IMG/VR virus record: IMGVR_UViG_3300023223_001138
Location: 1 to 50,612 of that record
Source of the DNA: a virus
Length of the DNA: 50,612 bases
Reading direction: 5' to 3' (one strand)
Made by a program: the position numbers and the translations under genes. This document shows, one piece after another, positions 3,992-34,999 of this stretch. How positions within the stretch are numbered: position 1 is the first letter of the stretch; each line of letters opens with the position of its first letter. Under the pieces are notes generated by a model. It did no database searches, had not been told where the DNA came from, and saw only the letters and a program-made list of their open reading frames with translations.

Positions 3992-4002
3992 ATTTCAACA
4001 TA
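3992..4002 (-). promoter_or_regulatory. Leaderless promoter element for the leftward early operon
   Basis: The minus strand reads GATCGTATGTTGAAAT and then the ATG of the DUF4177-like gene. TATGTT occupies 4002-3997, with 5 nt between it and the start codon. No -35 hexamer at normal spacing is apparent. Confidence 0.5.
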
Positions 4003-4048
4003 CGATCGCAACTGTGTTCAACATGGAGAATCGCGAAAGAGTATGAGT

Positions 4049-4172
4049 GAGCTCGCTCCGCTCGCAAAGCCCGCGCCCTATCGGGCGCAGACTTTCTTTT
4101 TCTTTGTTAAACCTTATTAATGATTAGCCGTGAGCGGAGCGAAGCGGCTAATATTGCGAGCGCAGCGAGCTC
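4049..4172. repeat. Inverted repeat pair, 17-bp arms
   Basis: The left arm GAGCTCGCTCCGCTCGC (4049-4065) is the reverse complement of the right arm GCGAGCGCAGCGAGCTC (4156-4172) with one mismatch. Between them lie a terminator-like hairpin, an AT-rich operator-like motif and the smaller palindrome ATTAGCCG to CGGCTAAT. The arms could form a long cruciform or RNA stem. Confidence 0.55.
4073..4101 (+). terminator. Rho-independent terminator-like hairpin
   Basis: GCGCCC (4073-4078), loop TATC, GGGCGC (4083-4088), followed by AGACTTTCTTTTTC. The stem is short but GC-only and the T-rich tail favours rightward termination. Confidence 0.45.
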
Positions 4173-4325
4173 CTCATTGGGACATAACTGCGGGAAACGC
4201 GCAGCGAGAATCTCAATTTGACCACAGGTGTAGCCTTACTATCCTCATTAATAAGGGTTCCCGTTGCACCATTTATCCAACACGCGTGCTTCCCGGGAAC
4301 TTAGAGCTTTTCATTAATAATGAAA
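4113..4325. repeat. Three copies of the TTATTAATGAA operator-like motif
   Basis: Copies are CTTATTAATGA at 4113-4123, TCATTAATAAG at 4245-4255 (inverted) and TTCATTAATAATGAAA at 4310-4325 (self-palindromic). The ATTAAT core with flanking TTA/TAA is shared with copies near 44.15, 44.8 and 49.8 kb. Confidence 0.5.
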
Positions 4326-4423
4326 CGAGCGGAGTAGGCTAATTTCCGCTTCCCGCCAGAGAGAGCGAATCGATCTCTGACGTACGTGCCTTTCCAACCT
4401 TGTTACCTCAGGAGGTCCTATTG

Positions 4424-4462
4424 ATGCCCTCGGTTCTTCCGGCCCGCGAGCACCCAAAATAG
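4424..4462 (+). CDS. Possible 12-aa leader peptide
   Basis: ATG CCC TCG through to TAG encodes 12 residues (MPSVLPAREHPK). The sequence AGGAGGT lies 8 nt before the ATG, the best ribosome site in this region. It is followed about 90 bp later by a strong terminator. It may be a leader peptide or chance; nothing else supports it. Confidence 0.2.
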   Translation: MPSVLPAREHPK

Positions 4463-4550
4463 GGCTTGTGTCGCGGTGGTCTTTGTTTTATGTTCACAGA
4501 CAGTGGGCTGGATGTTCACCGTCTGATCTTTTGCGAGGTCGATTTTAGAG

Positions 4551-4581
4551 CCCGGTAGCGAGAACTACCGGGTTTCTTTTT
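4551..4581 (+). terminator. Strong rho-independent terminator
   Basis: CCCGGTAG (4551-4558), loop CGAGAA, CTACCGGG (4565-4572), then TTTCTTTTT. The 8-bp perfect stem and T tract indicate a rightward transcript ending here, although no clear protein gene precedes it. A small RNA between about 4.1 and 4.58 kb is possible. Confidence 0.75.
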
Positions 4582-4870
4582 GTCTTGAATACTAGGTCAT
4601 GTGTTGAAAACTAAATAGCGCCGCCACTCCAACGGAACCGCATTCACCGGTTTATGTGCGCTCTCGGTAGATGGAATGGCTAAAGACTTTCATCGTCTCT
4701 GGGAAGTCGTCTGAATCGAAACTCGTTTGTCCATACCAAAGCTGGCTTACGCGTGACGAGTCGCGCCTCTCACCCTACGCTGTCTTGCGCAAAAGGTCAA
4801 AGGCGCGTAAGCTGATCACTCCGCTGACCCAGGCCCACCCAAGCCGGGCGGATCCATGTAGTCAATGCTC

Positions 4871-4910
4871 CCCCGCGATCGGTTCCTTTTTCCCGATCGC
4901 GGGGTTTTTT
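4871..4910 (+). terminator. Strong rho-independent terminator just upstream of the endolysin
   Basis: CCCCGCGATCGG (4871-4882) pairs with CCGATCGCGGGG (4893-4904) around a 10-nt loop, followed by six T. The 12-bp perfect stem insulates the endolysin promoter, which begins 10 bp later, from rightward transcription. Confidence 0.85.
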
Positions 4911-4920
4911 ACGCGTGGTG

Positions 4921-4931
4921 TATGATGAGGC
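4921..4931 (+). promoter_or_regulatory. Leaderless promoter element for the endolysin
   Basis: GTGTATGATGAGGC immediately precedes the ATG at 4932: TATGAT at 4921-4926, then GAGGC. The spacing to the start codon is 5 nt, the same as in eight other genes here. GAGG could alternatively be a ribosome site, but only 1 nt would separate it from the ATG. Confidence 0.55.
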
Positions 4932-5402
4932 ATGGACACCATTCCCTCAATTTTTGAAGTTGCTCTCGCCCAGTACGGCGAGAAAGAGAAACCCGGATCG
5001 GGCACGAACCCCGACATCGACCGTTATCACAAGTACACTGGCCATCCTGAGTGGAATGAGGATGTCTCATGGTGCTCTAGCGCGATGAACTATTGCGCTT
5101 TCATGGCGCGGTTAGAGAGATCCAATAACGCAACTGCGAAGTCATGGATGAAGATCGGCAACACTGTTCATGACATGCAGGATGCTCGTATTAACAACTT
5201 GATCGTCTTGCACAATGGCGACCCTAATAAATGGCAAGGGCACGTGGGCTTGTACGTCAATCACACATCCACTCGTGTTTGGCTGTTAGGTGGGAATCAG
5301 AGCAATATGTTTTGCATCAAAGCTTATTCACGCAAACTCGTACGAGAAAACGGGATCCGGCAACTCTCATATCACTGGAAGGACACAGGGCCTAGAGAAT
5401 GA
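4932..5402 (+). CDS. Endolysin, CHAP/NlpC-like cysteine peptidase of the TIGR02594 type
   Basis: The protein probably cleaves peptidoglycan at the end of infection. The N-terminus (IFEVALAQYGEKEKPGSGTNPDI) matches the family pattern A-x-x-x-G-x-x-E-x-x-G-x-x-x-N-P. The catalytic Cys is C48 in VSWCSSAMNYC. The His is H104 in WQGHVGLYVN, followed by WLLGGNQSN, the usual LGGNQ segment. Length 156 aa is typical. No signal peptide is visible, so release would need a holin, and none is evident next to it. It is the first gene of a short rightward operon and shares ATGA with the next gene. Confidence 0.85.
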   Translation: MDTIPSIFEVALAQYGEKEKPGSGTNPDIDRYHKYTGHPEWNEDVSWCSSAMNYCAFMARLERSNNATAKSWMKIGNTVHDMQDARINNLIVLHNGDPNKWQGHVGLYVNHTSTRVWLLGGNQSNMFCIKAYSRKLVRENGIRQLSYHWKDTGPRE

Positions 5403-5668
5403 GCTCTTCAAAAGAAACGACTAAGCATTATTGGGGCGCCTACTTGCATCACGATATACTTACAGCGGGAATGTTTGTTTTTCAAAGGCAATACTACGAC
5501 GCTGGCGGAATGCAGTGTATGGCCTGCAAGCATACGGTTTTATTTTGGGAAGAAAAATTTAGAGAGGACGCGGGCAAAATTGAGAAACGAGACACAGGCA
5601 AAACGGCTAACGACCTTCCTAAATTAGGTTGCTCGGGTTCACCCCTAATTTTGGCAGTGTCATGTTAA
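5399..5668 (+). CDS. Hypothetical protein with CxxC, 89 aa
   Basis: It starts at an ATGA overlap with the endolysin stop. The central part (ILTAGMFVFQRQYYDAGGMQCMACKHTVLFWEEKF) contains MQCMACKH, a possible half of a metal site. The C-terminus runs into the next gene by 7 bp. No transmembrane segment is clear enough to call a holin. The function is not recognised; co-transcription with the endolysin suggests a lysis-phase role. Confidence 0.55.
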   Translation: MSSSKETTKHYWGAYLHHDILTAGMFVFQRQYYDAGGMQCMACKHTVLFWEEKFREDAGKIEKRDTGKTANDLPKLGCSGSPLILAVSC

Positions 5669-5976
5669 GAGAGCGATTTGATCCCGAGTGCGAGTTTTGT
5701 GGTGCCGAATTGAAAGGTATCAGAAGCAATATGTCGTTTTGCTCATGCCCGCGCGCTAAAGCCAAAGGAGACCCACCAGAGCCTGTCAAAAAGTATCAGG
5801 GCGTCTATTCATTACCAGAGTACAGAGCCGCACTCACTGAAGCGTACCCGCACGTGAGACGGCAACTAGAAACGGGTTTGCACGCGCAAGACAGAAGAGA
5901 CGCAGCAGCGTGGCTCAATAAATGGGCGCCTTTCGTTCAAGCCTTGAAAATTAAAAAGGATGGTGTAGAGTCTTAA
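5662..5976 (+). CDS. Hypothetical protein with a CxxC zinc-finger-like N-terminus, 104 aa
   Basis: I start at ATG 5662, inside the last codons of the preceding gene; an in-frame TTG at 5629 is less likely. CEFCG near residue 10 and FCSCP near residue 30 form a CxxC plus CxC set that may bind zinc. The rest is helical (LPEYRAALTEAYPHVRRQLETGL, then DAAAWLNKWAPFVQALK). It is the last gene of the lysis operon before the tRNA-like region. No family is recognised. Confidence 0.6.
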   Translation: MLRERFDPECEFCGAELKGIRSNMSFCSCPRAKAKGDPPEPVKKYQGVYSLPEYRAALTEAYPHVRRQLETGLHAQDRRDAAAWLNKWAPFVQALKIKKDGVES

Positions 5977-5983
5977 AACTTAT

Positions 5984-6113
5984 GGGCGTAGTGACTCTGA
6001 TCCGGTGGACCATGGAGAAACCAGTGAAGTTGGCAACATCAACCTCTTGCAAGAACTCACGGCCGGACTCGATAGCCGTGTTTATGAGCCGGGTTCAAAT
6101 CCCGGTGCGCCCT
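5984..6113 (+). ncRNA. tRNA-like RNA candidate, 130 nt, with matched acceptor ends and a canonical T arm
   Basis: The 3' part is a perfect T arm: stem CCGGG at 6089-6093, loop TTCAAAT, stem CCCGG at 6101-6105. It is followed by TGCGCCC at 6106-6112. That acceptor strand pairs with GGGCGTA at 5984-5990 over 7 positions, one G-T. The span is about 130 nt, far longer than a normal tRNA. I could not place canonical D and anticodon arms, though CACGGC (6058-6063) pairs with GCCGTG (6075-6080). It may be an interrupted or decayed tRNA, a tRNA-mimic RNA, or a captured tRNA 3' end such as an attachment core. Confidence 0.35.
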
Positions 6114-6129
6114 TCCTTTTAATCTTTTT

Positions 6130-6199
6130 GCGCGGGTCGTCTAAAGTAAGACGCCGGGGTTACTCCCAGAAATGAGCGGTTCGAGACCCTCCCCAAGCA
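6130..6199 (+). tRNA. Degenerate tRNA-like sequence (possible pseudo-tRNA)
   Basis: The order and lengths of a cloverleaf can be laid out. They are a 7-nt acceptor, TC, D stem GTCT with AGAC, and an anticodon arm CCGGG with loop GTTACTC (anticodon would be TAC). A short variable region and T loop TTCGAGA follow. The acceptor, anticodon and T stems each contain two mismatches, so it is probably a relic or does not function. It lies directly after the longer tRNA-like element. The reverse strand here can be translated, but only as the kind of frame tRNA genes often give. Confidence 0.25.
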
Positions 6200-6346
6200 C
6201 CGAAGTCACCTTAGCAGGGAACTTTTGAAATCGTAAATAGTTAGCGGCGTTTAGTGTATGGAACGTGACTAAGGGATAAGGGAAACCTTTCGGGATAGGA
6301 TGAGTTAGCCCGGGGCACGCCTGACGCTCATTGAAAAACACTCTTA

Positions 6347-6383
6347 AGCCTCGCCCGGGTATCTCGACTTTGGCGGGGCTTTC
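6347..6383 (+). terminator. Hairpin, weak terminator
   Basis: AGCCTCGCC (6347-6355) pairs with GGCGGGGCT (6372-6380) over 9 bp including one T-G, followed by TTC. The T run is short, so termination is uncertain. It precedes the promoter of the next gene by only a few bases. Confidence 0.4.
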
Positions 6384-6384
6384 G

Positions 6385-6395
6385 TATGTTAAAGC
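6385..6395 (+). promoter_or_regulatory. Leaderless promoter element
   Basis: TTTCGTATGTTAAAGC ends directly before the ATG at 6396; TATGTT is at 6385-6390, then 5 nt. It shares the G before TATG and the C before ATG with most other copies. Confidence 0.5.
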
Positions 6396-6623
6396 ATGAT
6401 GATCACAGTTTGTGCTGAGTGCAAACAAGCTTCTTGTTGGCATGGTGTTTTTATGTGCTGGAAATCAGCTAACGCTGACACCGTCGAAATGAGCGTCAAG
6501 CAACTCACAGAGCTCGCACTAGAGCACCCGGACAACTGGGATATTTGTGAGGATCACGGCGTCGCTCGAGACGTTATGGGCGGTTGTGGGTGCCCTAAGG
6601 CATTGCCACGTCCTCCACGATAG
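6396..6623 (+). CDS. Small Cys-rich protein, probably metal binding, 75 aa
   Basis: The N-terminus CAECKQASCWHGVFMC and the C-terminus CEDHGVARDVMGGCGCPKA each hold a cluster of Cys and His, a common layout for small phage zinc proteins. The middle is one amphipathic helix (SVKQLTELALEHPDNWDI). It has its own leaderless promoter element and no ribosome site. Its last 29 bp overlap the 3' end of the leftward fibre-like gene in convergent orientation. The function is unknown. Confidence 0.6.
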   Translation: MMITVCAECKQASCWHGVFMCWKSANADTVEMSVKQLTELALEHPDNWDICEDHGVARDVMGGCGCPKALPRPPR

Positions 6624-8733
6624 ACTCGCCCGCTACATCAATGTCTTCAGTCGCCTCAACCGCGAAAATGCAGAACTTGATCGCGGCGGCGGGATTCGTT
6701 ATCCATTGAATCGTTGATATTTGCGCGAGTGTCGTGATTCGACCTACAAGAGTGCTCGATCCTGAAACAGAGCTACAGTCTACCGCATCGAGTGTGGACA
6801 CAAGCTGCTCTGGCAACGTTGGAGACGTGGCAGGAAGCTGTCTGATACTCTTACAGCCCTGATTGAGTGGCAAGGCCGCACCCTGAGACCAACGAGCACC
6901 TAGAGCCCCGCCCGCGGGCCCGTCATCAGTTCGCGCGCATGTCACGATCCCAAGTAGTCCAGGCTCGAAGCCCACATCAGGCAACGGTTCACTAGTGCCA
7001 TTAACGCCACCGGATTCTTTAGTGAAATCACCGACAAAGAATCCCATGCCAGGCAACTTGAAAGCGAGGATATGCGCGTAATCACCGTCTGTTCCGGACC
7101 ACGTGATGCCGTCCGCCGTGAAACTCGTTACAGACATGATCCAATTAATCGTGGATCCGCTGATTTGAGCGAGAAGCGATCCAGGAATCAGGGCACAGTT
7201 CTTATTCGTGTCTTGCTGATTGTTAGCCATCAGCCACTGGTCACCCGCCGCTCCTGGATTCTTCGCGACGCCAAAGCACGTTAGGGCAAAAGTGGAGTCC
7301 GATACACTGCCGGAAGGCAAGCCATTAGTCATTGCGATGACGCCGTCGGCCTCAAACCCGAAACCCGAAACCGAGCCGTCATTGATCTCAACAGCCTTTA
7401 GTGCTGATTGAACTGAGAGCCCGCCAAAGATCGTGATCTGAAGGAACACTCCCGGTGTATTGACGATGAAATCGATATCCAATCCGACGTCCGTCATAAC
7501 GGGAGTGCCTCGGACTAGATCGGCTGCTCCACCGTCACCACCACTCATTACGATTAGCGAGCCTATGCCGTTAGATCGTTTGCGCTGGTAGGCCTCAAAA
7601 GGCGATACCTGTGCGCCCGCACACATGCCCATCGAAGTGTTCCCTGACACGAAACAGATGCACGAAACAGAGCCTGACTCAAGAGTGTTTAGGGCCGTGT
7701 TCGCTGTAGCTCGAATGATTGCAAAGGAAGGCGCGTCAAATTCCACATCAACAACTACGTTGACAACGCCAGTTGTGCCATCGGTTGTGTAAATGCGTGA
7801 TGTGTAATGAGTGTCTCGAGACTGTATATTAATGGCGAAAGCTGAAGAAATCAGTTCAGATCCGCCACCTGCGTCCGATAGAACAAACAAGAATCGAGCG
7901 CCTTCGCCAACGGTTCCAAGATTAATGAAATCCCAGTTGAGAGTACTTGTAGTGACCCCACTAATCTGTTGAATCTGTTTATTCGCAGTCGCGAAGATAG
8001 TGCTATCTGCAACATAGAGAGCTGTGATACCTGTAGTGAACAGATCAACTCCATTGACTGCCAAGTTGAGGTTGTCAGGCTCAACTTCATTTCCTCCGTC
8101 TACGTCGTTAATAACAGGTGCTAAAGGTGCGGGTGCTTCAAAAAAAGAAGCAAGCGTAACCGCAAAAGCAGACGATCCATTGAACGTCCAAGCGAACTGA
8201 CCCGACGCTTCAGACGGCACGATGTGAGCCGCTGCGTGCGTCACGGCATCATCGCCACCGGGACTGACAACATTGCCGTCAATCACCATCGTAGCGGAGC
8301 CGGATGGAGTGAGACGCGAACTAAGCGTCAAGCAACTAACTGCGAAATCAGTCGCGTCTTTTACAACGGTTCTAGTGCTAGATGAGGTGCCTGAAATGAG
8401 GTTTGCTGAATCAATCGCGTGCACAGATCCCGTTTGCAAAATACCTTCCACAGCATAGACGGTCATTCCTCGACCTTGATTGTTGTGATTAGGTGAAGGT
8501 ATTTGCTCAAACGTAACTGACGCACTCACCAGGTCGCCAGCGGCTAGCCAATAGATTCCACTGAAGCCCTCACCGAAACCCCCAAGCGCGGGATCTTCAA
8601 AGACTGCCAAGGTCATCGGCACAGCGTCGGCCTCATTTGTATTGGACGAGAACGTGCTCAAAATGGAGCGAACCGATGTGCAAACAATGTACATCACGTC
8701 GTTGCCCGTTAAATTGGACAACGTCGCGGTCAT
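6595..8733 (-). CDS. Putative virion protein, tail fibre or appendage, 712 aa
   Basis: This is the last gene of the leftward tail module. The sequence is rich in Ser, Thr, Gly, Val and Asp with alternating beta strands and few charged helices, as in extended beta-structured tail appendages. Two or three segments look related to each other (for example GNDVMYIVCTSVRSIL, LESGSVSCICFVSG, SVSDSTFALTCFGVAKN and LLGIVTCARTDDGPAGGALGARW), suggesting repeated beta domains. No enzyme motif is visible. The ATG at 8733 has no obvious ribosome site. The assignment rests on position and composition. Confidence 0.6.
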   Translation of the reverse strand: MTATLSNLTGNDVMYIVCTSVRSILSTFSSNTNEADAVPMTLAVFEDPALGGFGEGFSGIYWLAAGDLVSASVTFEQIPSPNHNNQGRGMTVYAVEGILQTGSVHAIDSANLISGTSSSTRTVVKDATDFAVSCLTLSSRLTPSGSATMVIDGNVVSPGGDDAVTHAAAHIVPSEASGQFAWTFNGSSAFAVTLASFFEAPAPLAPVINDVDGGNEVEPDNLNLAVNGVDLFTTGITALYVADSTIFATANKQIQQISGVTTSTLNWDFINLGTVGEGARFLFVLSDAGGGSELISSAFAINIQSRDTHYTSRIYTTDGTTGVVNVVVDVEFDAPSFAIIRATANTALNTLESGSVSCICFVSGNTSMGMCAGAQVSPFEAYQRKRSNGIGSLIVMSGGDGGAADLVRGTPVMTDVGLDIDFIVNTPGVFLQITIFGGLSVQSALKAVEINDGSVSGFGFEADGVIAMTNGLPSGSVSDSTFALTCFGVAKNPGAAGDQWLMANNQQDTNKNCALIPGSLLAQISGSTINWIMSVTSFTADGITWSGTDGDYAHILAFKLPGMGFFVGDFTKESGGVNGTSEPLPDVGFEPGLLGIVTCARTDDGPAGGALGARWSQGAALPLNQGCKSIRQLPATSPTLPEQLVSTLDAVDCSSVSGSSTLVGRITTLAQISTIQWITNPAAAIKFCIFAVEATEDIDVAGESIVEDVAMP

Positions 8734-8767
8734 TGGAGGCGGACTAGATCAAGAATATTCCAAGACA

Positions 8768-9277: not shown

Positions 9278-9279
9278 GA

Positions 9280-22335: not shown

Positions 22336-22812
22336 CTAATTGCCCAAAAAATGCGATTCCTCGCCAATAAACTCCGTGACTTGTTCAAGGATCCAGGAGA
22401 ACTTAGCGTCCGAGTAAACTTTACGAACGTTTCCAGCGTTGCACGCAAGATTCTCGTCACCGATGACAAAGTTAGTCCACGCACGAGTACACATGACCGC
22501 GAGGTCAAGGGCGTCTTCTTCGATCTCCTTAGCCGTGATTTTTACACGTCCCTTGCGTGACGCCGCGCCGAGTTTCTGATTTTGCTGCTTTTGACGAAAA
22601 ACAACAGCCTCCCGGCAATCCATTCTAACTAATGAAATCGTGATGGGCACGAATGCCGGTTTGCCTTGATCGTCTAATTCTCCTTTCGGATCGGGAATCT
22701 TGAGAGTCTTACCGTCCTCTGGTGATTTGAGGGTGAGAGTTGCAGTGTCCGTGAGAGCAAATGAGTCTAAGCCTTGCATGAATGTTTGTTTCCTGAATGG
22801 GTGAGAAGCCAC
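22336..22812 (-). CDS. Tail assembly chaperone, upstream (gpG-like) frame, GTG start
   Basis: The 158-aa product lies between tail tube and tape measure, as lambda gpG does. It begins GTG (MASHPFRKQTF), exactly 5 nt after TATGAT, implying an extra leaderless transcript starting here inside the tail operon. The N-terminus (SFALTDTATLTLKSPEDGKTLKIPD) is beta-rich and the C-terminus is helical (ILEQVTEFIGEESHFLGN). A TTTTTTG slippery site sits three codons before its stop and links it to the next frame. Confidence 0.8.
   Translation of the reverse strand: MASHPFRKQTFMQGLDSFALTDTATLTLKSPEDGKTLKIPDPKGELDDQGKPAFVPITISLVRMDCREAVVFRQKQQNQKLGAASRKGRVKITAKEIEEDALDLAVMCTRAWTNFVIGDENLACNAGNVRKVYSDAKFSWILEQVTEFIGEESHFLGN
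22345..22351 (-). promoter_or_regulatory. Programmed -1 frameshift slippery site T TTT TTG
   Basis: Reading the minus strand in the gpG-like frame gives CAT TTT TTG GGC AAT TAG. The heptamer T TTT TTG fits the X XXY YYZ rule. A -1 slip gives TTT TTT GGG CAA TTA GTT GAG, which stays open into the downstream chaperone frame. This matches the conserved frameshift between tail chaperone genes of long-tailed phages. The fusion would be 293 aa. Confidence 0.85.
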
Positions 22813-22823
22813 CTTCTATCATA
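22813..22823 (-). promoter_or_regulatory. Leaderless promoter element inside the tail operon
   Basis: Minus strand GCGCGTATGATAGAAG then GTG. TATGAT occupies 22823-22818 and overlaps the last codons of the tail tube gene. The start codon here is GTG, yet the 5-nt spacing is kept. Confidence 0.5.
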
Positions 22824-24294
22824 CGCGCAAATTAGATTTTTGGATCCAGATCGAAGTTGCGGCCGAGTTCCCTTCGCCGATACCCTCAACAGTTGCTTCG
22901 AGCGCGCGAAAAGCCATGTTCAAAGGAACTGGACCTTCAGTTGGAGGATCCATATCGCTGCTCGTGTATTTGACCCGAGGCATCACGATATTCATAAATG
23001 AGGCAGGATCCGCAGGCTCTTGAAGTTTAATGAATAAGCTTGAATCGGTCTCACTAAAGAACTTGTTATAGAGCGAGCTGCCCCTAAGGAAAGCTGTCAG
23101 AGTTCCTGTGATTGAGCATCGTCCCTCAAACACTCCAGGCGAGAACTTGTCGCCCACGACTGCCTCAAGTGTTCGGTTATTCTCAATTGAGAAGTCTACA
23201 CCACTCACCACGAAGTTTTGAACGCCTCCTTCATACAACCGTCCGTCGAACGCCGCGAAAGGCGTTGTCAAAGGCGCGGGGACCGGAGCTTCTGCGATGA
23301 TTGAAGGTCCCATCGCTTCCGAACGCATGCCTAAAATACCGAAAGTGCCGCCCACAATGGACTCAGGCGAGATTGACCACGCCATGTCATTAATAGTGCA
23401 ACCGTTGTATTCACGGAATTGAATGATGTCGTCGAAGCGTTGCTCAAAAGTGAAGGTGCGAAGCACTAGCCCGATATCCATTCGCTCACCGGGGTAAGTA
23501 ACGACGCCAACGCTTCCCGCTTCGGTCACAGTCACGAGATCGGGATCATCGATCACGATAGTTGACCCATCGCCCGCGACAGATAGGATTCTGAAAACGG
23601 CGTTGTTACCGGCGTTCGCAAACGTGTTGTTGGAAATCAAGTCGCCAGGGCGGTAACCCGCTGTCGTGTACGCGCCCAGAGTTGACCCGATAGTCGATTG
23701 ACCGGCTGTAGGTACGCCGACGGTCATGTCTTGTCCGGTCACGTCAGCGGGCGTCACCCAATCGCCAGACAAGTTGCCGCGGATCATATCGTCGTAAGAG
23801 ACGAGCGAGAGCTCATAACCCGGGCTGCCCTCAACTTGATTGAATCCATGCCGCACGTCGGCAAACTGACGAGTTGGCCGGACTTCCTCCGACTCGAGAG
23901 TGTCTTTCGTAAGGTCGAGTTGGCGCCCTGTGGCCCGCAAAGTGGAAAGAGTGATCTTGGCCGCTCCGCCGCCCGCAGCCTCATCAACGCCAACGTTAGC
24001 CGTGTCGTAGAGAATGATTTGAAGCGCTGTAACGGATTTGACGCGAAATGACGTGTTGTTCGCGGGCGCGGTCCATCCTGAAAGGAGGAGAACTTGATCC
24101 GCCAAAACATCATCATCGTCAATAAAACTGCCCGCGACACGATCGAGGTTAAACTCATCCGTGCCCGCTCCTGTCTTATCCGCTGAAATGGTGCCCGTAA
24201 GAGAGGTCACGCCTGAGGGACGCACACCGCAATCGGCTTCTTCTGTGTATGTGAGGCTTACTCGGGTTCCTGATGCAATGTCGGTACAGGCCAT
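22819..24294 (-). CDS. Major tail tube protein
   Basis: At 491 aa this is a long member of the phage tail tube family (PF18906-like). The diagnostic block is LRATGRQLDLTKDTLESEEVRPTRQFADVRHGFNQVEGSPGYELSLVSYDDMIRGNLSGDW near residues 125-185. A second tube-like half follows with MAWSISPESIVGGTFGILGM and FVVSGVDFSIENNRTLEAVVG. A repeated insert type (TAPANNTSFRVKSVTALQIILYD and NNAVFRILSVAGDGSTIVID) occurs twice, a small beta domain often found on tail tube surfaces. The tube surrounds the tape measure. It is followed at once by the chaperone genes. Confidence 0.85.
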   Translation of the reverse strand: MACTDIASGTRVSLTYTEEADCGVRPSGVTSLTGTISADKTGAGTDEFNLDRVAGSFIDDDDVLADQVLLLSGWTAPANNTSFRVKSVTALQIILYDTANVGVDEAAGGGAAKITLSTLRATGRQLDLTKDTLESEEVRPTRQFADVRHGFNQVEGSPGYELSLVSYDDMIRGNLSGDWVTPADVTGQDMTVGVPTAGQSTIGSTLGAYTTAGYRPGDLISNNTFANAGNNAVFRILSVAGDGSTIVIDDPDLVTVTEAGSVGVVTYPGERMDIGLVLRTFTFEQRFDDIIQFREYNGCTINDMAWSISPESIVGGTFGILGMRSEAMGPSIIAEAPVPAPLTTPFAAFDGRLYEGGVQNFVVSGVDFSIENNRTLEAVVGDKFSPGVFEGRCSITGTLTAFLRGSSLYNKFFSETDSSLFIKLQEPADPASFMNIVMPRVKYTSSDMDPPTEGPVPLNMAFRALEATVEGIGEGNSAATSIWIQKSNLRV

Positions 24295-27863: not shown

Positions 27864-27887
27864 TTTTGAGCTCCGAAAAGTAGAACA

Positions 27888-27908: not shown

Positions 27909-27931
27909 AGACTAAAGAAACCGGCTAACGA

Positions 27932-29011
27932 CTAACCCGCGAGACGTACGCCAAACCCGGGACGGATCAAAGTTTCGACGCGGAGCGCCAACCCTGAAAT
28001 TGGATCCACTGCGCTTGCAGTGATGACGCCGAGTCCAGGACCATGGCTTTGTAGCGGTCGACTAGCGAACGCGATAGCCTGGCGATGGAACAGAAGGTTG
28101 TTGACATGAGTGTTAACAACATCGACCGCTTCCGATCCCGCAAGAGCGACGCGAAGCGGCGGACTAATTGAGATTGCGGCCGCGGCTCCTGCAACATCGG
28201 CAGTGATGACGTAGGTTTGCGTGTGATTCGCAAACGTCAGGATGTCGCCCTTTGTGAAATCACCATTGTTGCCGGCGGATGCTACGGCGACTGATGTCAC
28301 TCCAATGCTATGCGCACCATTTACGGTGTAATCGTCAGGCGGAGATGCCGCTGTGGTGTGCGTCAACACGTTTTGATTCATCCACCAGCCGAAACCCATC
28401 TTGCGATTCAGGTTGCCGTTGATGATGGTATCCGGGCTGCCATTCCAGGACATGTCCTGGAACGCACGGATATCAAGCGCTTTCGCTTCAGCATCGGGAT
28501 CCAGGAGTGCCCAACGATCATCGAGCGGCGCGAGGCCTTGATTCAAAAGCTTTCGGCTCTGAGTCGCATCGGTGGTGTCGCCGGACGAAAAGGGTGTCAC
28601 ACCGGCCGTGCCGGTGTACCAGTAAAATTGTTTGCCGAGTTCCTGAATGAAAACATCAACTTCATTCGCGATGGCCTTGATGGCCTCGCTTGCCTGCATC
28701 GGCATGATGTCGGTGAGCGCTTCCTTCATATCCTTGTCAGATAGAAAAAATGCGGCCTCTTGCCACTGATCCAGCGGAATGGGAACGCTTGTGGGTTGCG
28801 TGATCCCTGGATCGGGCGCCACGTTGGCGGGCGTCACCGCGGAAGTCGCGATAGCCGATGGAATAGGCACATCGATCGTGCTGCCTAGTTGGCCCGCTTC
28901 TCGCTCATACTGGCGATTGACCAGGCGAGGTGTAACGGCATTCTCGCGCAAGGCCATCAACCCTTGAGCCAATAGTTTCGGAATTACTTCTGTCAGAATG
29001 TTGTCAGCCAC
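27932..29011 (-). CDS. Major capsid protein, P22 coat-like
   Basis: This 359-aa protein matches the P22 gp5-like pattern. The N-terminal part is AVTPRLVNRQYEREAGQLGSTIDVPIP. A central segment has MGFGWWMNQNV, and then comes the inserted beta region GDILTFANHTQTYVITADVAGAAAAISISPPLRVALAG. The end is VNNLLFHRQAIAFASRPL with GLALRVETLIRPGFGVRLAG. The start is GTG at 29011, preceded by AAGGAAG; an in-frame stop lies just upstream. Its leader holds two hairpins and a second strong ribosome site. No scaffold or portal gene adjoins it; a scaffold-like gene sits 21 kb away. Confidence 0.78.
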   Translation of the reverse strand: MADNILTEVIPKLLAQGLMALRENAVTPRLVNRQYEREAGQLGSTIDVPIPSAIATSAVTPANVAPDPGITQPTSVPIPLDQWQEAAFFLSDKDMKEALTDIMPMQASEAIKAIANEVDVFIQELGKQFYWYTGTAGVTPFSSGDTTDATQSRKLLNQGLAPLDDRWALLDPDAEAKALDIRAFQDMSWNGSPDTIINGNLNRKMGFGWWMNQNVLTHTTAASPPDDYTVNGAHSIGVTSVAVASAGNNGDFTKGDILTFANHTQTYVITADVAGAAAAISISPPLRVALAGSEAVDVVNTHVNNLLFHRQAIAFASRPLQSHGPGLGVITASAVDPISGLALRVETLIRPGFGVRLAG

Positions 29012-29043
29012 GGTTTTTTGCTTCCTTTAGTCTTTGTTCACCT

Positions 29044-29084: not shown

Positions 29085-29088
29085 AGAG

Positions 29089-29307
29089 TTAGTTGTCTCT
29101 CACTGAGAGACTAGACTTAAGGAAAATACCGCCGATTGATTTTAGTTGCAACAATTGAATTGCGACAACCGCGGCGGCAACAATAGTCACGGCGTAATAA
29201 ATAACAAGCAAGTTCGAAGCTTGATGCCTCAGTAAGTTTTTTACCTTCTTCCGATCCCCAAAGACCTCAAATAGAGCCGCGCGTCTCGTCCGCTGTAACC
29301 GTGCCAT
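29089..29307 (-). CDS. Small single-pass membrane protein, 72 aa
   Basis: A basic N-terminal half (MARLQRTRRAALFEVFGDRKKVKNLLRH) is followed by one transmembrane helix (NLLVIYYAVTIVAAAVVAIQLLQL). The ATG at 29307 lies 67 bp inside the exonuclease gene and has no clear ribosome site, so a shorter version is possible. It could be a holin-like or membrane-localising protein; composition alone does not decide. Confidence 0.45.
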   Translation of the reverse strand: MARLQRTRRAALFEVFGDRKKVKNLLRHQASNLLVIYYAVTIVAAAVVAIQLLQLKSIGGIFLKSSLSVRDN

Positions 29308-30068: not shown

Positions 30069-30074
30069 GAGTCT

Positions 30075-30359
30075 CTAAGCGGCTTCTGACTCGCTGAAAC
30101 TTTCACGCAAGGTTTCAAGACCTTGAAGCACTCGCGATAGTTGCCGCTCCCATTTCAGAGTATCGGCCGTCCTAGAATTGCGCATTTCGAGAATCGTTAA
30201 CTCGTTCGCGTCTATGCGAATCATCGCGAAAGCCAACTCCCTATACGACTCGTCATTTAACTGAAAAGAAACAACTACGACACCGCGAGTTGCTTTCGCC
30301 GACAGAGCTCCGCACTGTAGAGCTTTCAAAGCCAGTTGTTGTGCTTCTTGCTCGTTCAT
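30075..30359 (-). CDS. Hypothetical protein, 94 aa
   Basis: A short alpha/beta protein (LALKALQCGALSAKATRGVVVVSFQLNDESYRELAFAMIRID). It begins 6 nt after TAGGGT, a possible -10 for a leaderless message, with no other ribosome site. It lies just before the exonuclease gene and is probably co-transcribed with it. It is not recognised. Confidence 0.55.
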   Translation of the reverse strand: MNEQEAQQLALKALQCGALSAKATRGVVVVSFQLNDESYRELAFAMIRIDANELTILEMRNSRTADTLKWERQLSRVLQGLETLRESFSESEAA

Positions 30360-30398
30360 GAGTGAACCCTAGTATTGAAACATTAAGAAATCAATAGG

Positions 30399-30863
30399 CT
30401 AACGAGTATCTTTGTAAGAATACTCTAACCACCATCCCAAACACTCGTCATCTGCCATCAGAGACCCTGTGAGAGCGCCAATCATGTTCAAGTCGTGCAC
30501 GAAATGAAACGTTGAAGCGTGACCGCGGCGCAAAACCCACAGTTCTACAACTAACTGCGGAGACTCCTTTGAGATTTCAAACGCGATTTCATTCCAATGA
30601 GTGGACGTGGACAAATAACCGTCTCTCAAAAGCTGAAGATACTCGCGCGCGTCAATCGACAGGGCTCGAATCTGGCTCCCTTTTCTAGGGAAAATATTTA
30701 TCACTCGTCCCTTATCTGTTCGATAGACGTCAGGACGGCCCTGTATGCGTCTCTCGCCTTTTATTTGAGGTCCATCGGGCATCTGGGCCAGAACGGACAT
30801 GCGAGCGCTCATCTCAGCGCACAGCCGCGTCAAACAGATTACAGAAGCATCAGGGATCGCCAT
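30399..30863 (-). CDS. Hypothetical protein, 154 aa
   Basis: Soluble mixed alpha/beta protein with a basic, Arg-rich middle (GERRIQGRPDVYRTDKGRVINIFPRKG) and a C-terminus ending GWWLEYSYKDTR. No motif is recognised. Its ATG is exactly 5 nt after TATGAT. It forms a divergent pair with the rightward gene at 31049, separated by a structured 185-bp spacer. Confidence 0.55.
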   Translation of the reverse strand: MAIPDASVICLTRLCAEMSARMSVLAQMPDGPQIKGERRIQGRPDVYRTDKGRVINIFPRKGSQIRALSIDAREYLQLLRDGYLSTSTHWNEIAFEISKESPQLVVELWVLRRGHASTFHFVHDLNMIGALTGSLMADDECLGWWLEYSYKDTR

Positions 30864-30874
30864 GTCTAATCATA
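30864..30874 (-). promoter_or_regulatory. Leaderless promoter element
   Basis: Minus strand TTATGTATGATTAGAC then ATG: TATGAT at 30874-30869 and TAGAC before the start codon. Confidence 0.5.
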
Positions 30875-30879
30875 CATAA

Positions 30880-31010
30880 AACAGCCCGAACTAGCCGGGC
30901 CGAGTACTCGATCGACGGTGCTACCCGCCTCAAGCCGCGGATGGTTCCCCACTCTCCGCTAGGGCCTCTCGAAAGAGGATGCTTGGTCACGGCCACTGCT
31001 AGCCGCGTCA
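30880..31010 (-). ncRNA. Structured intergenic sequence, possible noncoding RNA
   Basis: The spacer between two divergent genes is GC-rich and folds repeatedly when read on the minus strand. Stems include GCTAG with CTAGC, and CCTCT-TTCG-AGAGG with a UUCG-type loop. GCGG...CCGC encloses TGG-GGAA-CCA with a GNRA-type loop. Finally GCCCG-GCTAGTT-CGGGC is followed by TGTTTTA, which is terminator-like. I cannot match it to a known RNA family. The complementary strand folds similarly, so the strand is uncertain. Confidence 0.35.
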
Positions 31011-31037
31011 AACGATAGCACTTCCTAGCGTTTGCCG

Positions 31038-31048
31038 TATGATGCTGC
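31038..31048 (+). promoter_or_regulatory. Leaderless promoter element
   Basis: TTGCCGTATGATGCTGC precedes the ATG at 31049; TATGAT at 31038-31043 and 5 nt spacing. Confidence 0.5.
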
Positions 31049-31360
31049 ATGGCTGACAAATTCCATGAAATCGCCAACATGCTCCGCGACTATAACCCTA
31101 GAGGCGTGAAAGTGAGTGGTGATGGATCAATAGGATCCGCGATCGATTATCTCCATACTTGGAGCTCTAAGTTCGATCCCATACTCCTGCACATTTTCGT
31201 GAGAAGTGAGAGAGAAATAACGATCAAAATCAATTGGCCATCAAAAGGCGCTCAAACTCCTCACGTTGCAAACAACTTCACGGAAGCTATGAATGAAATC
31301 ATGCGTCTCAACTCTGAGATTCAGGAGATTTTGGAGCGCCCTGGCGAGTCGCCGGAGTAG
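31049..31360 (+). CDS. Hypothetical protein, rightward single gene, 103 aa
   Basis: A small alpha/beta protein (MADKFHEIANMLRDYNP, later REITIKINWPSKG and a C-terminal helix FTEAMNEIMRLNSEIQEILERPG). It stands alone on the plus strand among leftward genes. Its last 53 bp overlap the 3' end of dcd in convergent orientation, so the transcripts are antisense to each other there. No family is recognised. Confidence 0.6.
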   Translation: MADKFHEIANMLRDYNPRGVKVSGDGSIGSAIDYLHTWSSKFDPILLHIFVRSEREITIKINWPSKGAQTPHVANNFTEAMNEIMRLNSEIQEILERPGESPE

Positions 31361-31895
31361 GCCCTTTTTGATCCTGATAATGAGAACCGCGCTCTTTGCC
31401 GTAAGGGATTGAGCAAGGGCGCGAGAGCTCCGACAACTCGAGTTGACAGAGCATAACGCCGGGCCTGAGGATGATGGGACGGGGTCCATGATTCACGAGC
31501 TCTAATGTTATCTGCCCTGAGAATCCAGGATCAATGAACGCTGAGTCATTGCAAATACTGAGGCCCATGCGCGCGGGCGTGCTCTTATTGTGAATCACGC
31601 CTCGCAATGAATTGCCGAGACGAACACTCTCCATCGTAGTCGCTAAAAGAAAGTCGCCAGGCTGCATATAGTACCCCGACACGCTCATCAAAACGCACTC
31701 CGTCATGATGCTCTGATTTTGAACATTGACGTAATCAGTATCATACACGCCGCCCACAATCCGCCGCAGTTCATTGCCTAAACGCAAGTCAATGGAAGCG
31801 GGCTGGATCTGTTCTGTCAAATCCAAGAAGTCCGTAATTGAGAATCTTTCTTCAAGGATAGCTGTAGCGATGTCTGAGTCACACAAACAGGTCAT
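31308..31895 (-). CDS. dcd: dCTP deaminase
   Basis: The enzyme converts dCTP to dUTP, supplying dUMP for ThyX. Family motifs: QPASIDLRLGNELRR near residue 31, QPGDFLLATTMESVRLG, then RGVIHNKSTPARMGL with AFIDPGFSGQITLELVNHGPRPIILRPGVMLCQLELSEL. The C-terminal YGKERGSHYQDQKGPTPA corresponds to the usual YG-x-x-S-K-Y-Q-x-Q-x-G-P. Length 195 aa is normal. Its ATG follows TATGAT by 5 nt. Whether it also hydrolyses dUTP, as some bifunctional members do, cannot be told here. Confidence 0.93.
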   Translation of the reverse strand: MTCLCDSDIATAILEERFSITDFLDLTEQIQPASIDLRLGNELRRIVGGVYDTDYVNVQNQSIMTECVLMSVSGYYMQPGDFLLATTMESVRLGNSLRGVIHNKSTPARMGLSICNDSAFIDPGFSGQITLELVNHGPRPIILRPGVMLCQLELSELSRPCSIPYGKERGSHYQDQKGPTPATRQGAPKSPESQS

Positions 31896-31906
31896 GTGAC
31901 ATCATA
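31896..31906 (-). promoter_or_regulatory. Leaderless promoter element for dcd
   Basis: Minus strand TTGAGTATGATGTCAC then ATG; TATGAT at 31906-31901. It lies in the 12-bp gap after the Cys-rich gene. Confidence 0.5.
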
Positions 31907-31907
31907 C

Positions 31908-32306
31908 TCAATCACAAATGATTTCGATATCCCTCGTGAAGAGAGCACACCGCTGCGCGCTTATCTCATCGTGGCAATCATTCTCGAAGCACTCCATTTG
32001 AAATACTTGGATCTGGCGAAAACACTTCTCATTAAATGGAATCCCGCACCGGTCTTTCATACATGCGCGACGCTCATACCATTCACTTAACTGACCCGTT
32101 CGAACAACGCACTCTTTCCAGCCGCACGGGTCAGTCGTCGAATCAAACTCAGCACACGTAGAGAACATGCCATCGGGCTCGCACTCAGGAGGCATTTCAA
32201 TGCACGACAGATCGTACAGATCGACTATCTCCTGGCGTTCGAGCGATGGACTTTCCTCGTAACACGCCAAATTGAGACCCAAGATCATTAGTAGAGTGCG
32301 TGCCAT
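31908..32306 (-). CDS. Cys-rich, probably exported protein, 132 aa
   Basis: The N-terminus MARTLLMILGLNLAC looks like a short signal peptide ending in a lipobox-like LNLAC, so C15 may be lipidated; the -3 residue is unusual. The remaining chain has 12 further Cys, spaced through LSCIEMPPEC, DPCGWKEC, RACMKDRC, EKCFRQ, MECFENDC, QRC and IICD. The even number is consistent with six disulfides in an oxidising compartment. No known family is recognised. Such a protein could act at the host envelope, for example in superinfection exclusion or as an outer-membrane spanin, but that is inference. A TAGAGT -10-like hexamer lies 6 nt before the ATG. Confidence 0.6.
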   Translation of the reverse strand: MARTLLMILGLNLACYEESPSLERQEIVDLYDLSCIEMPPECEPDGMFSTCAEFDSTTDPCGWKECVVRTGQLSEWYERRACMKDRCGIPFNEKCFRQIQVFQMECFENDCHDEISAQRCALFTRDIEIICD

Positions 32307-32310
32307 ATCA

Positions 32311-32667
32311 TCACTCTACCGCAAATCGGTCTAAGCGGACAAGACCCTCAAGATCCCGAATGCGCAAATAAGCCCAGTCTCGATCAGTTAGATCGCTCCA
32401 CTCACCTATGAATTTGGGAAGAAAACCAGCCACCTGAACAACAGTTCCTCGCCAAATAGAAATGCCCACGAGATCAGGACCATTCATCATATTGACGATG
32501 TTCATCGATCTATTATTTACGTAATACTCCATCACATCCTCAGGATGTGAGTAATCTGGAGGGTCGCCTAATAGACAACTGTTCCACGCAAACAAGGTGG
32601 TCACGTGAGGTTCGAAAATAGGGCAAGAGGCAACAGCAACAGCTTTGTACACTAAATAGGAACTCAT
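32311..32667 (-). CDS. Hypothetical protein, 118 aa
   Basis: It starts with an ATGA overlap on the upstream gene. It contains SYLVYKAVAVASCPIF at the N-terminus and a well-formed alpha/beta middle (GPDLVGISIWRGTVVQVAGFLPKFIGEW), ending LRIRDLEGLVRLDRF. No membrane segment is convincing. It sits directly before the Cys-rich gene, so a shared process is possible. It is not recognised. Confidence 0.55.
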   Translation of the reverse strand: MSSYLVYKAVAVASCPIFEPHVTTLFAWNSCLLGDPPDYSHPEDVMEYYVNNRSMNIVNMMNGPDLVGISIWRGTVVQVAGFLPKFIGEWSDLTDRDWAYLRIRDLEGLVRLDRFAVE

Positions 32668-33023
32668 GACGTCACCTGTTTGATCTGATTCATGAGATTA
32701 CCGATTTTAATGAATAGGCCGCCGTAGCCTATGACATCGCTTGGCGAGTTACCTCTAAAATCACTTGAAGTTACCTGAAAAACAACGTCGCCTTCAGTAG
32801 GGACAAAAACTCCCACACTAACAGCCACATAGCCGCAAACCTTATCCTGTACAAAGTACTTGTACAGTAAAGAGACGGAGTTCAAATCGACCTCTGAAGG
32901 ATTGCCAATCCAAACACCACCTTTGTACACTATCCTGTAAGACGAGCTCTTGCTTTCCACATCCATATGGTGATCGATTATCGCTTTTGCGCGATCCAGC
33001 TTAGTTATTTTTTTATCGGTCAT
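32664..33023 (-). CDS. Hypothetical protein, 119 aa
   Basis: A beta-rich protein (RIVYKGGVWIGNPSEVDL, CGYVAVSVGVFVPTEGDVVFQVTSSDF). It is first in a leftward operon of three before dcd. Its ATG follows TATGGT by 5 nt, with GAGGC between, so either leaderless or very short-leader translation is likely. No family is recognised. Confidence 0.55.
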   Translation of the reverse strand: MTDKKITKLDRAKAIIDHHMDVESKSSSYRIVYKGGVWIGNPSEVDLNSVSLLYKYFVQDKVCGYVAVSVGVFVPTEGDVVFQVTSSDFRGNSPSDVIGYGGLFIKIGNLMNQIKQVTS

Positions 33024-33034
33024 GCCTCACCATA
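33024..33034 (-). promoter_or_regulatory. Leaderless promoter element (TATGGT variant)
   Basis: Minus strand CGGTCGTATGGTGAGGC then ATG; the hexamer is at 33034-33029. It carries G where other copies have A or T. Confidence 0.45.
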
Positions 33035-33153
33035 CGACCGAGAAGCGTTTCTTCCTTGAAACCTTGGGCGAAACTTGAGCTTTTGCCAAGAGTCCCTACG
33101 TAAAAAGGTAGCCAGCGCTAGGGCACGTGTTACGGTCGCACCAGGAGAACTCT

Positions 33154-33351
33154 ATGGACTGGCTAACGGTTGCGCTTTTTGTGGGTCTGCTTCTCAGCGT
33201 GTGTAGGAATTGGGTGAAAAGCAGCGCCAACGCGGACACCTTGAGTAATTTAGCAAATGATGATCACACTAGTAATGAGCTGAGACTCTTCAAAAAGAAA
33301 ATGAATCTTGAGATCCAGCTCATTAAAAACAAGCTTGACGCCGAGCCCTAA
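33154..33351 (+). CDS. Small membrane protein, 65 aa
   Basis: I start at ATG 33154 with CAGGAG 6 nt upstream, not at an earlier in-frame ATG. One transmembrane helix (WLTVALFVGLLLSVCRNWV) precedes a charged helix (LRLFKKKMNLEIQLIKNKLD). This N-in single-pass layout with a soluble coiled tail is seen in small holin partners and i-spanins, but nothing specific is visible. It is a single rightward gene; its stop overlaps the convergent leftward gene by 4 bp. Confidence 0.55.
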   Translation: MDWLTVALFVGLLLSVCRNWVKSSANADTLSNLANDDHTSNELRLFKKKMNLEIQLIKNKLDAEP

Positions 33352-33830
33352 AGTTTAGCGTCGCTGAAATCTTTAGGAACTTTGTAGATCTCTTTGATCT
33401 CTTTGATCTTGGTCAAGAGTTCCGCGGCGCCTAGATGAGGACGTTTCGAAGACTCTTCAAACACGTCTTTCCAACCCGCTACGAAGACTTCGCAGTCCAA
33501 CAATACGTGAATAGGATCCACCGGAGGAGTGAGACCCGCGAGGACGAAGATTAGGCCTGGAGTTTTGTTCTCTTCCTCAATTTGTTTCGTGAGCATCTCC
33601 GTCGGCTCAGGTCTCGCGTAGACTTCCGCGGTTCTCTTCGCGCTGATCATGCGGGCGTGACCCCAAACGGCCTGAATACCCTGCAAAATCTCATGAGGCA
33701 TCACTGCCAGGAATGTTTCATTGGCCGGTTTGCCTTGAGCTATGTCCGCGGCTTTCGCGGTGATAGATTGAAAGGTTATTTTGCCAAGCTCCAATAGAGC
33801 TGCTTTGAATTCTTCGTCTTCGGTGTTCAT
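33348..33830 (-). CDS. Hypothetical protein, 160 aa
   Basis: Mostly helical (FKAALLELGKITFQSITAKAADIAQG, GIQAVWGHARMISAKRTAEVY) with a loop PGLIFVLAGLTPPVDPIHVLLDCEVF. It is coupled to the upstream gene by ATGA. No family is recognised. Confidence 0.55.
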   Translation of the reverse strand: MNTEDEEFKAALLELGKITFQSITAKAADIAQGKPANETFLAVMPHEILQGIQAVWGHARMISAKRTAEVYARPEPTEMLTKQIEEENKTPGLIFVLAGLTPPVDPIHVLLDCEVFVAGWKDVFEESSKRPHLGAAELLTKIKEIKEIYKVPKDFSDAKL

Positions 33831-34045
33831 ATTTTCTCGTCTGGGAACAACGTACGCAACAGGGGCAATTCTTTCTCGAGACTGAGACGGACGGCGGCGC
33901 TTTTTTGGCAGCGTTCAAGTAACGTCGATCCTAACGCCTCATATTGATCCAAACGCTTAAACATTAGGTGAAGCACTTTAGCGGTATCTTCAAGATTCAG
34001 AGTAACGCTTTCGCAGGCTGGCTTACGCTTCGCAGTGGTAGTCAT
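33827..34045 (-). CDS. Hypothetical helical protein, 72 aa
   Basis: I start at MTTTAKRKPACES (ATG 34045); an in-frame start at 34102 would run through a promoter-like TATGTTATATT. The chain is basic at the start and then helical (LEDTAKVLHLMFKRLDQYEALGSTLLERCQK). GGGAAAG upstream may serve as ribosome site. Confidence 0.5.
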   Translation of the reverse strand: MTTTAKRKPACESVTLNLEDTAKVLHLMFKRLDQYEALGSTLLERCQKSAAVRLSLEKELPLLRTLFPDEKI

Positions 34046-34119
34046 TTTCAAGCTTTCCCGGGAGCGTCTAATATAACATACGGGATCATGAAAAACCCCC
34101 AAGTCAGAACCGCGTAAAC

Positions 34120-34154
34120 AAAAAAGGGCAAGACGATCACCGTCCTACCCTTTT
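34120..34154 (-). terminator. Rho-independent terminator
   Basis: On the minus strand GGGTAGGACG, loop GTGAT, CGTCTTGCCC pair over 10 bp with two G-T pairs, followed by six T. It ends the transcript of the 34198-34620 gene and separates the virion cassette from the metabolic genes. Confidence 0.8.
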
Positions 34155-34197
34155 ACCAGCCGTGTCCGACTAGCCGGAATTGATTCGCTGACTATTT

Positions 34198-34620
34198 CTA
34201 GTACAGCTCGACAGTGATAGATGTGACGGGATCGTTGGGTGTTCCCGCAGTGTAATCGCGATTGAGTTGCAGCACTGATCCCACAGGGATTTGATTGATC
34301 TCAATGTCGGCGACTTGAAATGTGCCCGCGCCGGTGACGTTTGAAAGACTAGCCGTCACGAGAGCTTGATCCACGTCAGCACCGGCTGCATCCTGGTACC
34401 GTAGAATGTACGCCACGGTTTCGGCGGCACCGTACACGCCATCAGAGCGGATGATCACTCGAGCTCGAGCTAAAGGTTGGAACACCTTGACAGTTCCTAT
34501 CGAAGTGGTGTCGTCCGCACCAGAGGGAAAACTTACCCCAAAACTGTTGAGGGCAAGGCTGAGTTGTTGGGCGGACATGTGTCCAATGAGTTGATTTGAT
34601 GTGAGTTGCTGAAATGGCAC
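34198..34620 (-). CDS. Putative structural protein, 140 aa
   Basis: GTG start at 34620 with CAGGAG 9 nt upstream. The sequence is Ala/Ser/Thr/Val-rich and beta-structured (ARARVIIRSDGVYGAAETVAYILRYQDAAGADVDQALVTASLSNVTGAGTFQVADI), like head decoration or small tail proteins. The N-terminus contains repeated QQL/NQL units. The gene ends before a strong terminator. A virion role is inferred from composition and from the neighbouring PKD protein. Confidence 0.5.
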   Translation of the reverse strand: MPFQQLTSNQLIGHMSAQQLSLALNSFGVSFPSGADDTTSIGTVKVFQPLARARVIIRSDGVYGAAETVAYILRYQDAAGADVDQALVTASLSNVTGAGTFQVADIEINQIPVGSVLQLNRDYTAGTPNDPVTSITVELY

Positions 34621-34661
34621 TGTTTTGACTCCTGTTTAGGTACCCACAAAAGGGTGATTGA

Positions 34662-34988
34662 CTATACCACGTCGGAGCGCTCTAGAGGAGAACAGGCAAG
34701 TTTGCCTGAGACATCAAGATAGATTGTCAAAGCCATTCGTACTTGTTCTACGACATCCATCATTTTCGAAACTTCAAGGTCAGCGCAATCCATGCTCGTG
34801 AGCTTAGGTTTTTCAGAGTCAGACAACTCCCACAAACCGTTTTTCGCATTAATGTCAAATTTCGTACTACATACCCGACCACAAAAGAACACCTGCACAC
34901 GAAAAGGCATACATGTGAACGAAGTGAGTGATTCATGGCGCTTTTTAAGATCGGAGAGAACCTTCTCGAGTTGCTCGTAAACTTCCAT
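34662..34988 (-). CDS. Hypothetical protein, 108 aa
   Basis: Helical ends around a beta-rich middle (TSFTCMPFRVQVFFCGRVCSTKFDINAKNGLWELSD), with four Cys. Its ATG is 5 nt after TATGTT, so it has its own leaderless promoter, separate from the structural gene downstream. It is not recognised. Confidence 0.55.
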   Translation of the reverse strand: MEVYEQLEKVLSDLKKRHESLTSFTCMPFRVQVFFCGRVCSTKFDINAKNGLWELSDSEKPKLTSMDCADLEVSKMMDVVEQVRMALTIYLDVSGKLACSPLERSDVV

Positions 34989-34999
34989 GTCTCAACATA
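34989..34999 (-). promoter_or_regulatory. Leaderless promoter element
   Basis: Minus strand TTGATCGTATGTTGAGAC then ATG; TATGTT at 34999-34994. It is almost the same as the element before the 3991 start codon. Confidence 0.5.

Follow-up and report, generated by a model that had tools for sequence, protein, structure and literature searches.

A -10-like element at one fixed distance from start codons points to a probable class of leaderless promoters in a tailed phage

In the tailed phage represented by the IMG/VR record IMGVR_UViG_3300023223_001138, the short element TATGWT (W, A or T) or TATGGT stands exactly five nucleotides (nt) before the start codons of genes on both strands, and it is likely to mark a phage-specific class of promoters that consist of a -10 box only, are read by a sigma70-family factor and give leaderless messenger RNAs (mRNAs) for middle and late genes. 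The window analyzed here is the entire record, which is linear, 50,612 bases long and 50% GC. The original prediction for this DNA had listed nine sites, and all nine coordinates were verified, with start codons at 3991(-), 4932(+), 6396(+), 22812(-, GTG), 30863(-), 31049(+), 31895(-), 33023(-) and 34988(-). As it had also described, a G always comes before TATG (9/9, and 14/14 with related copies), most copies read CGTATG (six of the nine), and the base before the start codon is C at seven sites, or seven of the eight solid cases discussed below, where it would precede the A at +1.

The element is real and non-random. TATG[AGT]T-N5-ATG occurs nine times in the window, compared with a mean of 0.80 and a maximum of 4 in 300 dinucleotide shuffles, and so the genome-wide enrichment of the 5-nt spacing over shuffled sequence, proposed originally as a check, was indeed found. 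The same pattern lies at eight of the 149 starts of open reading frames (ORFs) of at least 55 codons, but at only one of the 1348 other ATGs in the window (Fisher p = 7e-8). When all hexamers were compared at gaps of 0-34 nt, CGTATG 7 nt before ATG was the strongest fixed-distance word, and none of 500 equal-sized random samples of the other ATGs contained one as strong. If TATG is not required, TANNNT is found 5 nt before nine ORF starts, eight of which read TATGDT (D, A, G or T) and none TATAAT. What speaks for chance, combined with selection of examples by an earlier reader, is that the nine sites were picked by eye and that the site at 22812 is weak; against the shuffles, the control samples and the unselected TANNNT sites, this explanation was rejected as having next to no probability.

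Eight of the nine cases are solid (Table 1). The ninth is doubtful because its ORF begins with GTG and is flanked by other tail genes of one operon, the TGA stop codon of the upstream gene lies inside the element, Met12 could serve as the start instead, and similarity to relatives sets in only at residue 51-59. For dcd and the genes at 4932 and 6396, the start codons fit family profiles, which align from residues 2-7. Coding scores support the frame of the ORFs behind the elements, 6396-6623 excepted, which is backed by a family match instead. Among the genes originally named as members, the endolysin and dcd stand and the tail chaperone at 22812 does not do so with confidence, while the label of first early gene found no support, the best canonical early-type promoter being at 49803(-). 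The short-leader copies named in the same place fared unevenly: the one at 42804-42809 is real and has an AGGTG Shine-Dalgarno sequence, the one at 48359-48364 precedes merely a 46-codon ORF, and the one at 538-543 is separated from the next ATG by what looks by eye like a terminator hairpin. A better leadered copy, at 49353, was absent from that list.

Table 1. Copies of the element and associated features in the window
Feature	Sequence	Coordinates	Strand	Context
Element and start codon	TCGTATGTTGaaatATG	3989..4005	-	start of 3755-3991(-); heads unit running to HTH_17 gene, towards thyX
Element and start codon	GTGTATGATGaggcATG	4918..4934	+	before endolysin/tail-lysozyme gene 4932-5402(+)
Element and start codon	TCGTATGTTAaagcATG	6382..6398	+	before 6396-6623(+), phrog_10857
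Element and start codon	ATGTATGATTagacATG	30861..30877	-	before 30399-30863(-), first gene upstream of head-tail run (30359 down to 6595)
Element and start codon	CCGTATGATGctgcATG	31035..31051	+	before 31049-31360(+); divergent from 30861..30877 copy
Element and start codon	GAGTATGATGtcacATG	31893..31909	-	before dcd (31308-31895, -); upstream gene ends 12 nt before
Element and start codon	TCGTATGGTGaggcATG	33021..33037	-	before 32664-33023(-); upstream gap 324 nt
Element and start codon	TCGTATGTTGagacATG	34986..35002	-	before 34662-34988(-), within 28-nt gap after PKD gene
Doubtful ninth copy	GCGTATGATAgaagGTG	22810..22826	-	before tail chaperone ORF 22336-22812(-)
Leadered copy	TCGTATGTTGaaac / AGGTGaactcATG	42786..42812	-	before 42354-42788(-); AGGTG Shine-Dalgarno begins at putative +1
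Leadered copy	TCGTATGATGtttg / tAAGGGAGaaccctgATG	49325..49356	-	before 48947-49327(-); AAGGGAG Shine-Dalgarno
Copy	GCGTATGATAgggt / agcgATG	48347..48367	-	before 46-codon ORF only
Intrinsic terminator, 12-bp stem and T-tract		4871..4910	+	just upstream of 4918 element; -25.2 kcal/mol, z -6.15
Terminator-like hairpin		6346..6384	+	T-run abuts 6382 element; -21.1 kcal/mol, z -3.96
Terminator-like hairpin		30876..30905	-	T-run abuts 30877 element; -12.6 kcal/mol, z -2.68
Early-type sigma70 promoter	TTGACG-17-TATAAA	49775..49803	-	before small gene 49559-49750(-), 24-nt leader
Operator-like palindromes	TTATTNATNAATAA	49809..49839		beside early-type promoter; also 44147-44183, 44737-44826

The element has the appearance of a promoter, since a TA...T preceded by G and followed six bases on by a pyrimidine-A step fits a sigma70-family -10 box and its initiator. 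It is also placed where promoters are expected to be: six of the eight element genes are at operon heads, in that the gap upstream is 100 nt or more or the neighbor lies on the other strand, whereas of the other 75 genes 13 are so placed (Fisher p = 0.0015), and the copy at 30863 heads the long minus-strand run bearing the capsid and tail genes. Because position, spacing specificity, operon heads, upstream terminators, initiator base and the leadered copies with Shine-Dalgarno sequences agree, the original idea of a phage-wide promoter code is well supported as far as a -10-like class with its 5' end at the start codon is concerned. No consistent -35 box accompanies the element, as had been noted before, the best match to TTGACA averaging 3.14 of six bases, which is also the average at random positions (3.14), and a TTGACA-like -35 at 16-18 nt, which would define canonical sigma70 promoters, was not found at the element copies. 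Nor is the element an extended -10, because the position at which the TG motif requires G is C in 11, T in two and A in one of the 14 copies. The copies also seem to have a weak preference for A/T at 15-18 nt ahead of TATG.

With a -10 box of the TA...T kind, RNA is expected to start about six bases downstream. In eight units the base six positions after TATGWT is the A of the start codon, and the mRNAs of these eight genes therefore probably begin at the start codon itself, without a ribosome-binding leader. The first T of the element is at -11 from the start codon in all eight solid cases; bacterial leaderless TA-led genes have the first T of TANNNT roughly 12 bp ahead of the start (PMC3160421). 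The expected lack of a ribosome site was borne out: six of the eight genes have no Shine-Dalgarno-like word, and the GAGG present at 4932 and 33023 would be unusable because it is one base from the ATG. The leadered copies provide independent support for the six-base offset, which in the 42812 copy lands on the first base of AGGTG (42796), a Shine-Dalgarno sequence 10 nt before its ATG, and in the 49356 copy lands one base before AAGGGAG (49342). Furthermore, the copies at 42812 and 546 retain C followed by A at the same offset with no start codon to impose an A there.

We propose that bacterial RNA polymerase with a region 2 of the sigma70 family would recognize GTATGWTG as a -10 box with no -35 contact, the TA...T of the element providing the melted bases. 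RNA would start on the A six bases after TATGWT, which in eight units is that of the start codon, and the resulting leaderless mRNA would presumably be translated through recognition of its 5'-AUG, while at two or three other copies the same start point would produce a leader of 4 to 15 nt, in two of them with a Shine-Dalgarno sequence. The class would drive middle and late genes, including the head-tail run, the endolysin and dcd, and at least one ordinary promoter, the palindrome-flanked TTGACG-17-TATAAA, would serve a small gene in what is likely to be the early region. This promoter, at 49803(-), is the best canonical sigma70 match ahead of a gene on its own strand. The early and late timing assigned to the two promoter types is suggested by gene content only. 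The palindrome TTATTNATNAATAA is present in 18 copies at up to two mismatches, compared with 2.25 in mononucleotide shuffles, and these cluster in the gaps of the likely early region, with partial copies at 4114 and 4307; it is probably a repressor or activator site.

What might read the element? We lean towards a phage-made specificity factor, either a sigma factor or a sigma-remodeling protein, that selects TATG over TATAAT, and such selection would best explain why the G is uniform. The modified or phage-encoded polymerase or sigma factor originally envisaged is plausible and unproven. A search for a sigma factor in the rest of the sequence had been suggested, and none was found in the 50.6 kb with Pfam, PHROGs or the sigma sequences of relatives as queries. 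A search of the window for a T7-type RNA polymerase had no match, and since the positive control had none either it is uninformative; general scans of the window ORFs returned no RNA polymerase families, with no dedicated search for multisubunit enzymes made. Three relatives encode a sigma70 region-2 protein, which scores above the family cut-off in MW202657 (W01) and G007 (at 40362-40514) and below it in G014 (2671-2847, weak). A sigma-like gene lies between portal and terminase in one relative (L003 8386-8973(-), MW202657). The contig analyzed here is probably partial, because neither terminase nor portal was found in the 50.6 kb and a scaffold-like gene is at its right end (49907-50338). 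Rather doubtfully, a specificity factor encoded in the missing part of the genome could recognize only the -10-like GTATGWTG, and the 5-nt fusion could switch the modes of transcription and translation together, from host sigma70 and leadered mRNAs early to a phage factor and leaderless mRNAs late.

It is possible, though we would not call it probable, that the same promoters are read by the unmodified primary sigma of a host with leaderless TATG-type -10 promoters, in which case nothing phage-encoded would be required. The commonest form of the element, TCGTATGTTG, occurs in the E. coli lac P1 promoter, where it is the -10 box, and the promoter sequence is present in 3278 of 5426 E. coli genomes; host sigma70 could therefore in principle read the element. 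Unlike the element in the window, the lac promoter comes with a -35 and a CAP site, and its mRNA has a leader. Many bacteria make leaderless mRNAs from TANNNT about 12 nt before their starts, but these TA-led signals have been described as TAnnnT in high-GC and TAtaaT in medium-GC hosts, not as TATG (PMC3160421). The phage also carries the TTGACG-17-TATAAA promoter, and the bacterial genomes searched do not display a comparable class. Three that bear relatives of the capsid gene have two to four spaced copies in 3-4.9 Mb, which is control level, compared with eight in the 50.6-kb window. With a stricter pattern, 120 Pseudomonadota genomes gave 22 matches against 4 for the control; this apparent forward excess was rejected as the same class, since among 17 inspected sites a single one begins a reading frame of more than 37 codons (89), the other 16 staying below 40, and many of the sites fall within one recurring coding sequence reading RMMGH.

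That the element is instead a regulator binding site, or a translation signal overlapping the start codon, is improbable. A translation signal would likewise be held at a fixed spacing, and ATGWTG does supply an out-of-frame upstream ATG, but the element is concentrated at operon heads rather than at operon-internal genes, copies exist with gaps of 9, 15 and 20 nt, two of which have their own Shine-Dalgarno sequence, T-run hairpins abut three copies, and the TA...T with pyrimidine-A six bases on is promoter grammar. It is highly improbable that a phage polymerase reads TATG directly, in the manner of the non-virion RNA polymerase (nvRNAP) of phiKZ, which would produce leaders of about 8 nt rather than leaderless mRNAs. 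The late promoters of phiKZ do have a TATG core and no -35, as here. Multisubunit phage RNA polymerases are, to our knowledge, confined to jumbo phages, and no phage RNA polymerase was recognized in the window, the T7-type search being uninformative. Transcription in phiKZ begins on the G of TATG and is carried out by a multisubunit phage polymerase (PMC5312081), whereas here conservation continues past the G, with W, an invariant T and mostly G, as in a -10 box.

Several points weigh against a phage-specific, -10-only promoter class. It is present on one contig only, and none of the relatives has it; the window contains no sigma factor or known sigma-remodeling protein that could be found; and the 5' ends are placed at the start codons from sequence. 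There is also the precedent of phage 7-11, whose predicted TGATGT motif (PMC4331800) is unlike the late promoters GTAAtg-16-aCTA subsequently mapped by experiment (PMC8948821). The positional test applied here is stricter than the one behind the computed 7-11 motif, and it too is a reading of sequence.

How far, then, does the class extend? Scans with one protein at a time, using the capsid, the host-specificity protein of the tail or dcd, brought up no near relatives. Alignment-based scans gave 80 relatives for the capsid, the best at 53%, and 80 for the tail, the best at about 36%, and the class was seen in none of them. Across 41 other records, namely phage MW202657 and 40 sought by way of the capsid, the spaced pattern was counted four times, with about five expected by chance in a hand calculation, and it is absent from 31 tail-module records, several of which have 8-11 structural genes in common with the window. 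Pooled ORF starts of the relatives have no 5-nt peak. When the fixed-distance word test was applied to 11 near-complete relatives, it returned mostly Shine-Dalgarno words, and in one case nothing; Vibrio phage MAR10 gave a mix of Shine-Dalgarno-like and TTACTA words. Among viral contigs, the exact promoter pattern was met in six; none of these has more than three copies of the relaxed form, and the one with three is 247 kb long. The enrichment in relatives that had been put forward as a test was accordingly not seen, and the code is therefore special to this phage, not to its family, among what was searched. For the same reason, conservation is unusable as evidence for function. Two other repeats were encountered in these genomes. 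The first 50 kb of MAR10 (L004) contain TTACTA/TAGTAA 210 times and TTAGTA/TACTAA 206 times, about eightfold more than the roughly 24 expected from base composition, and in G007 (L094-L097) some 15 starts have a recurrent block with ATTAGGAGATA and ATAATT directly before ATG, so that their ribosome-site context is strongly uniform.

The virus itself is a tailed phage: besides a P22-like coat protein with 41.6% identity to that of MAR10, the window encodes tape-measure and tail host-specificity proteins that resemble their gene transfer agent counterparts. No tRNA genes were found in the 50,612 bases, and a PDB sequence search with four window proteins of no known identity gave no significant match. 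The scaffold-like gene is about 20 kb away from the capsid gene (27932-29011), with replication genes and dcd between them; in relatives such as L047 it directly precedes the capsid gene. The second gene of the 3989-4005 unit, 3499-3819(-), encodes an HTH_17 (excisionase/MerR-like) protein that is under the Pfam cut-off and has a weak likeness in the PDB to terminase small subunits (E 0.09).

The closest model is phiEco32, whose own sigma factor lacks region 4 and reads tAATGTAtA as its only element, transcription starting 6-8 bp further on; promoters dependent on this sigma, gp36, are at middle and late units, and early genes have host sigma70 promoters (PMC8948821). One highly conserved element, no -35 and, probably, placement at middle/late units are common to both phages, but the sequence is different, leaderless transcripts are not mentioned for phiEco32 (PMC8948821), and the sigma factor known there was not found here. 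Bacterial TA-led genes have the position and the TA...T core in common with the element (PMC3160421), which differs in its fixed TATG[AT] middle, the G before it, its fixed 5-nt spacing and its occurrence in a phage. The middle and late promoters of Thermus phage P23-45 are another -10 class that serves a whole phage without a -35 once the host has been taken over (PMC7403470), but they are of the extended -10 type, and gp39 displaces region 4 of sigma there; the window element lacks the extended -10 TG. The parts of the system are thus known singly, from the single-element promoters of phiEco32 and from leaderless TA-led genes, and their combination is new. Transcripts of P23-45 are reportedly often leaderless.

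The element looks like a dedicated switch for middle and late genes, in which one sequence is joined to the start codons of eight units of a single phage, always at the same exact spacing. Because of this fusion, the choice of promoter would also set the mode of translation. That relatives with the same structural module lack the class shows how quickly phage promoter codes turn over. If confirmed, the element would be a compact part of about 17 nt, combining promoter and start codon, and a route to the factor that reads it, and it would provide a test of whether phages push infected cells towards leaderless translation.

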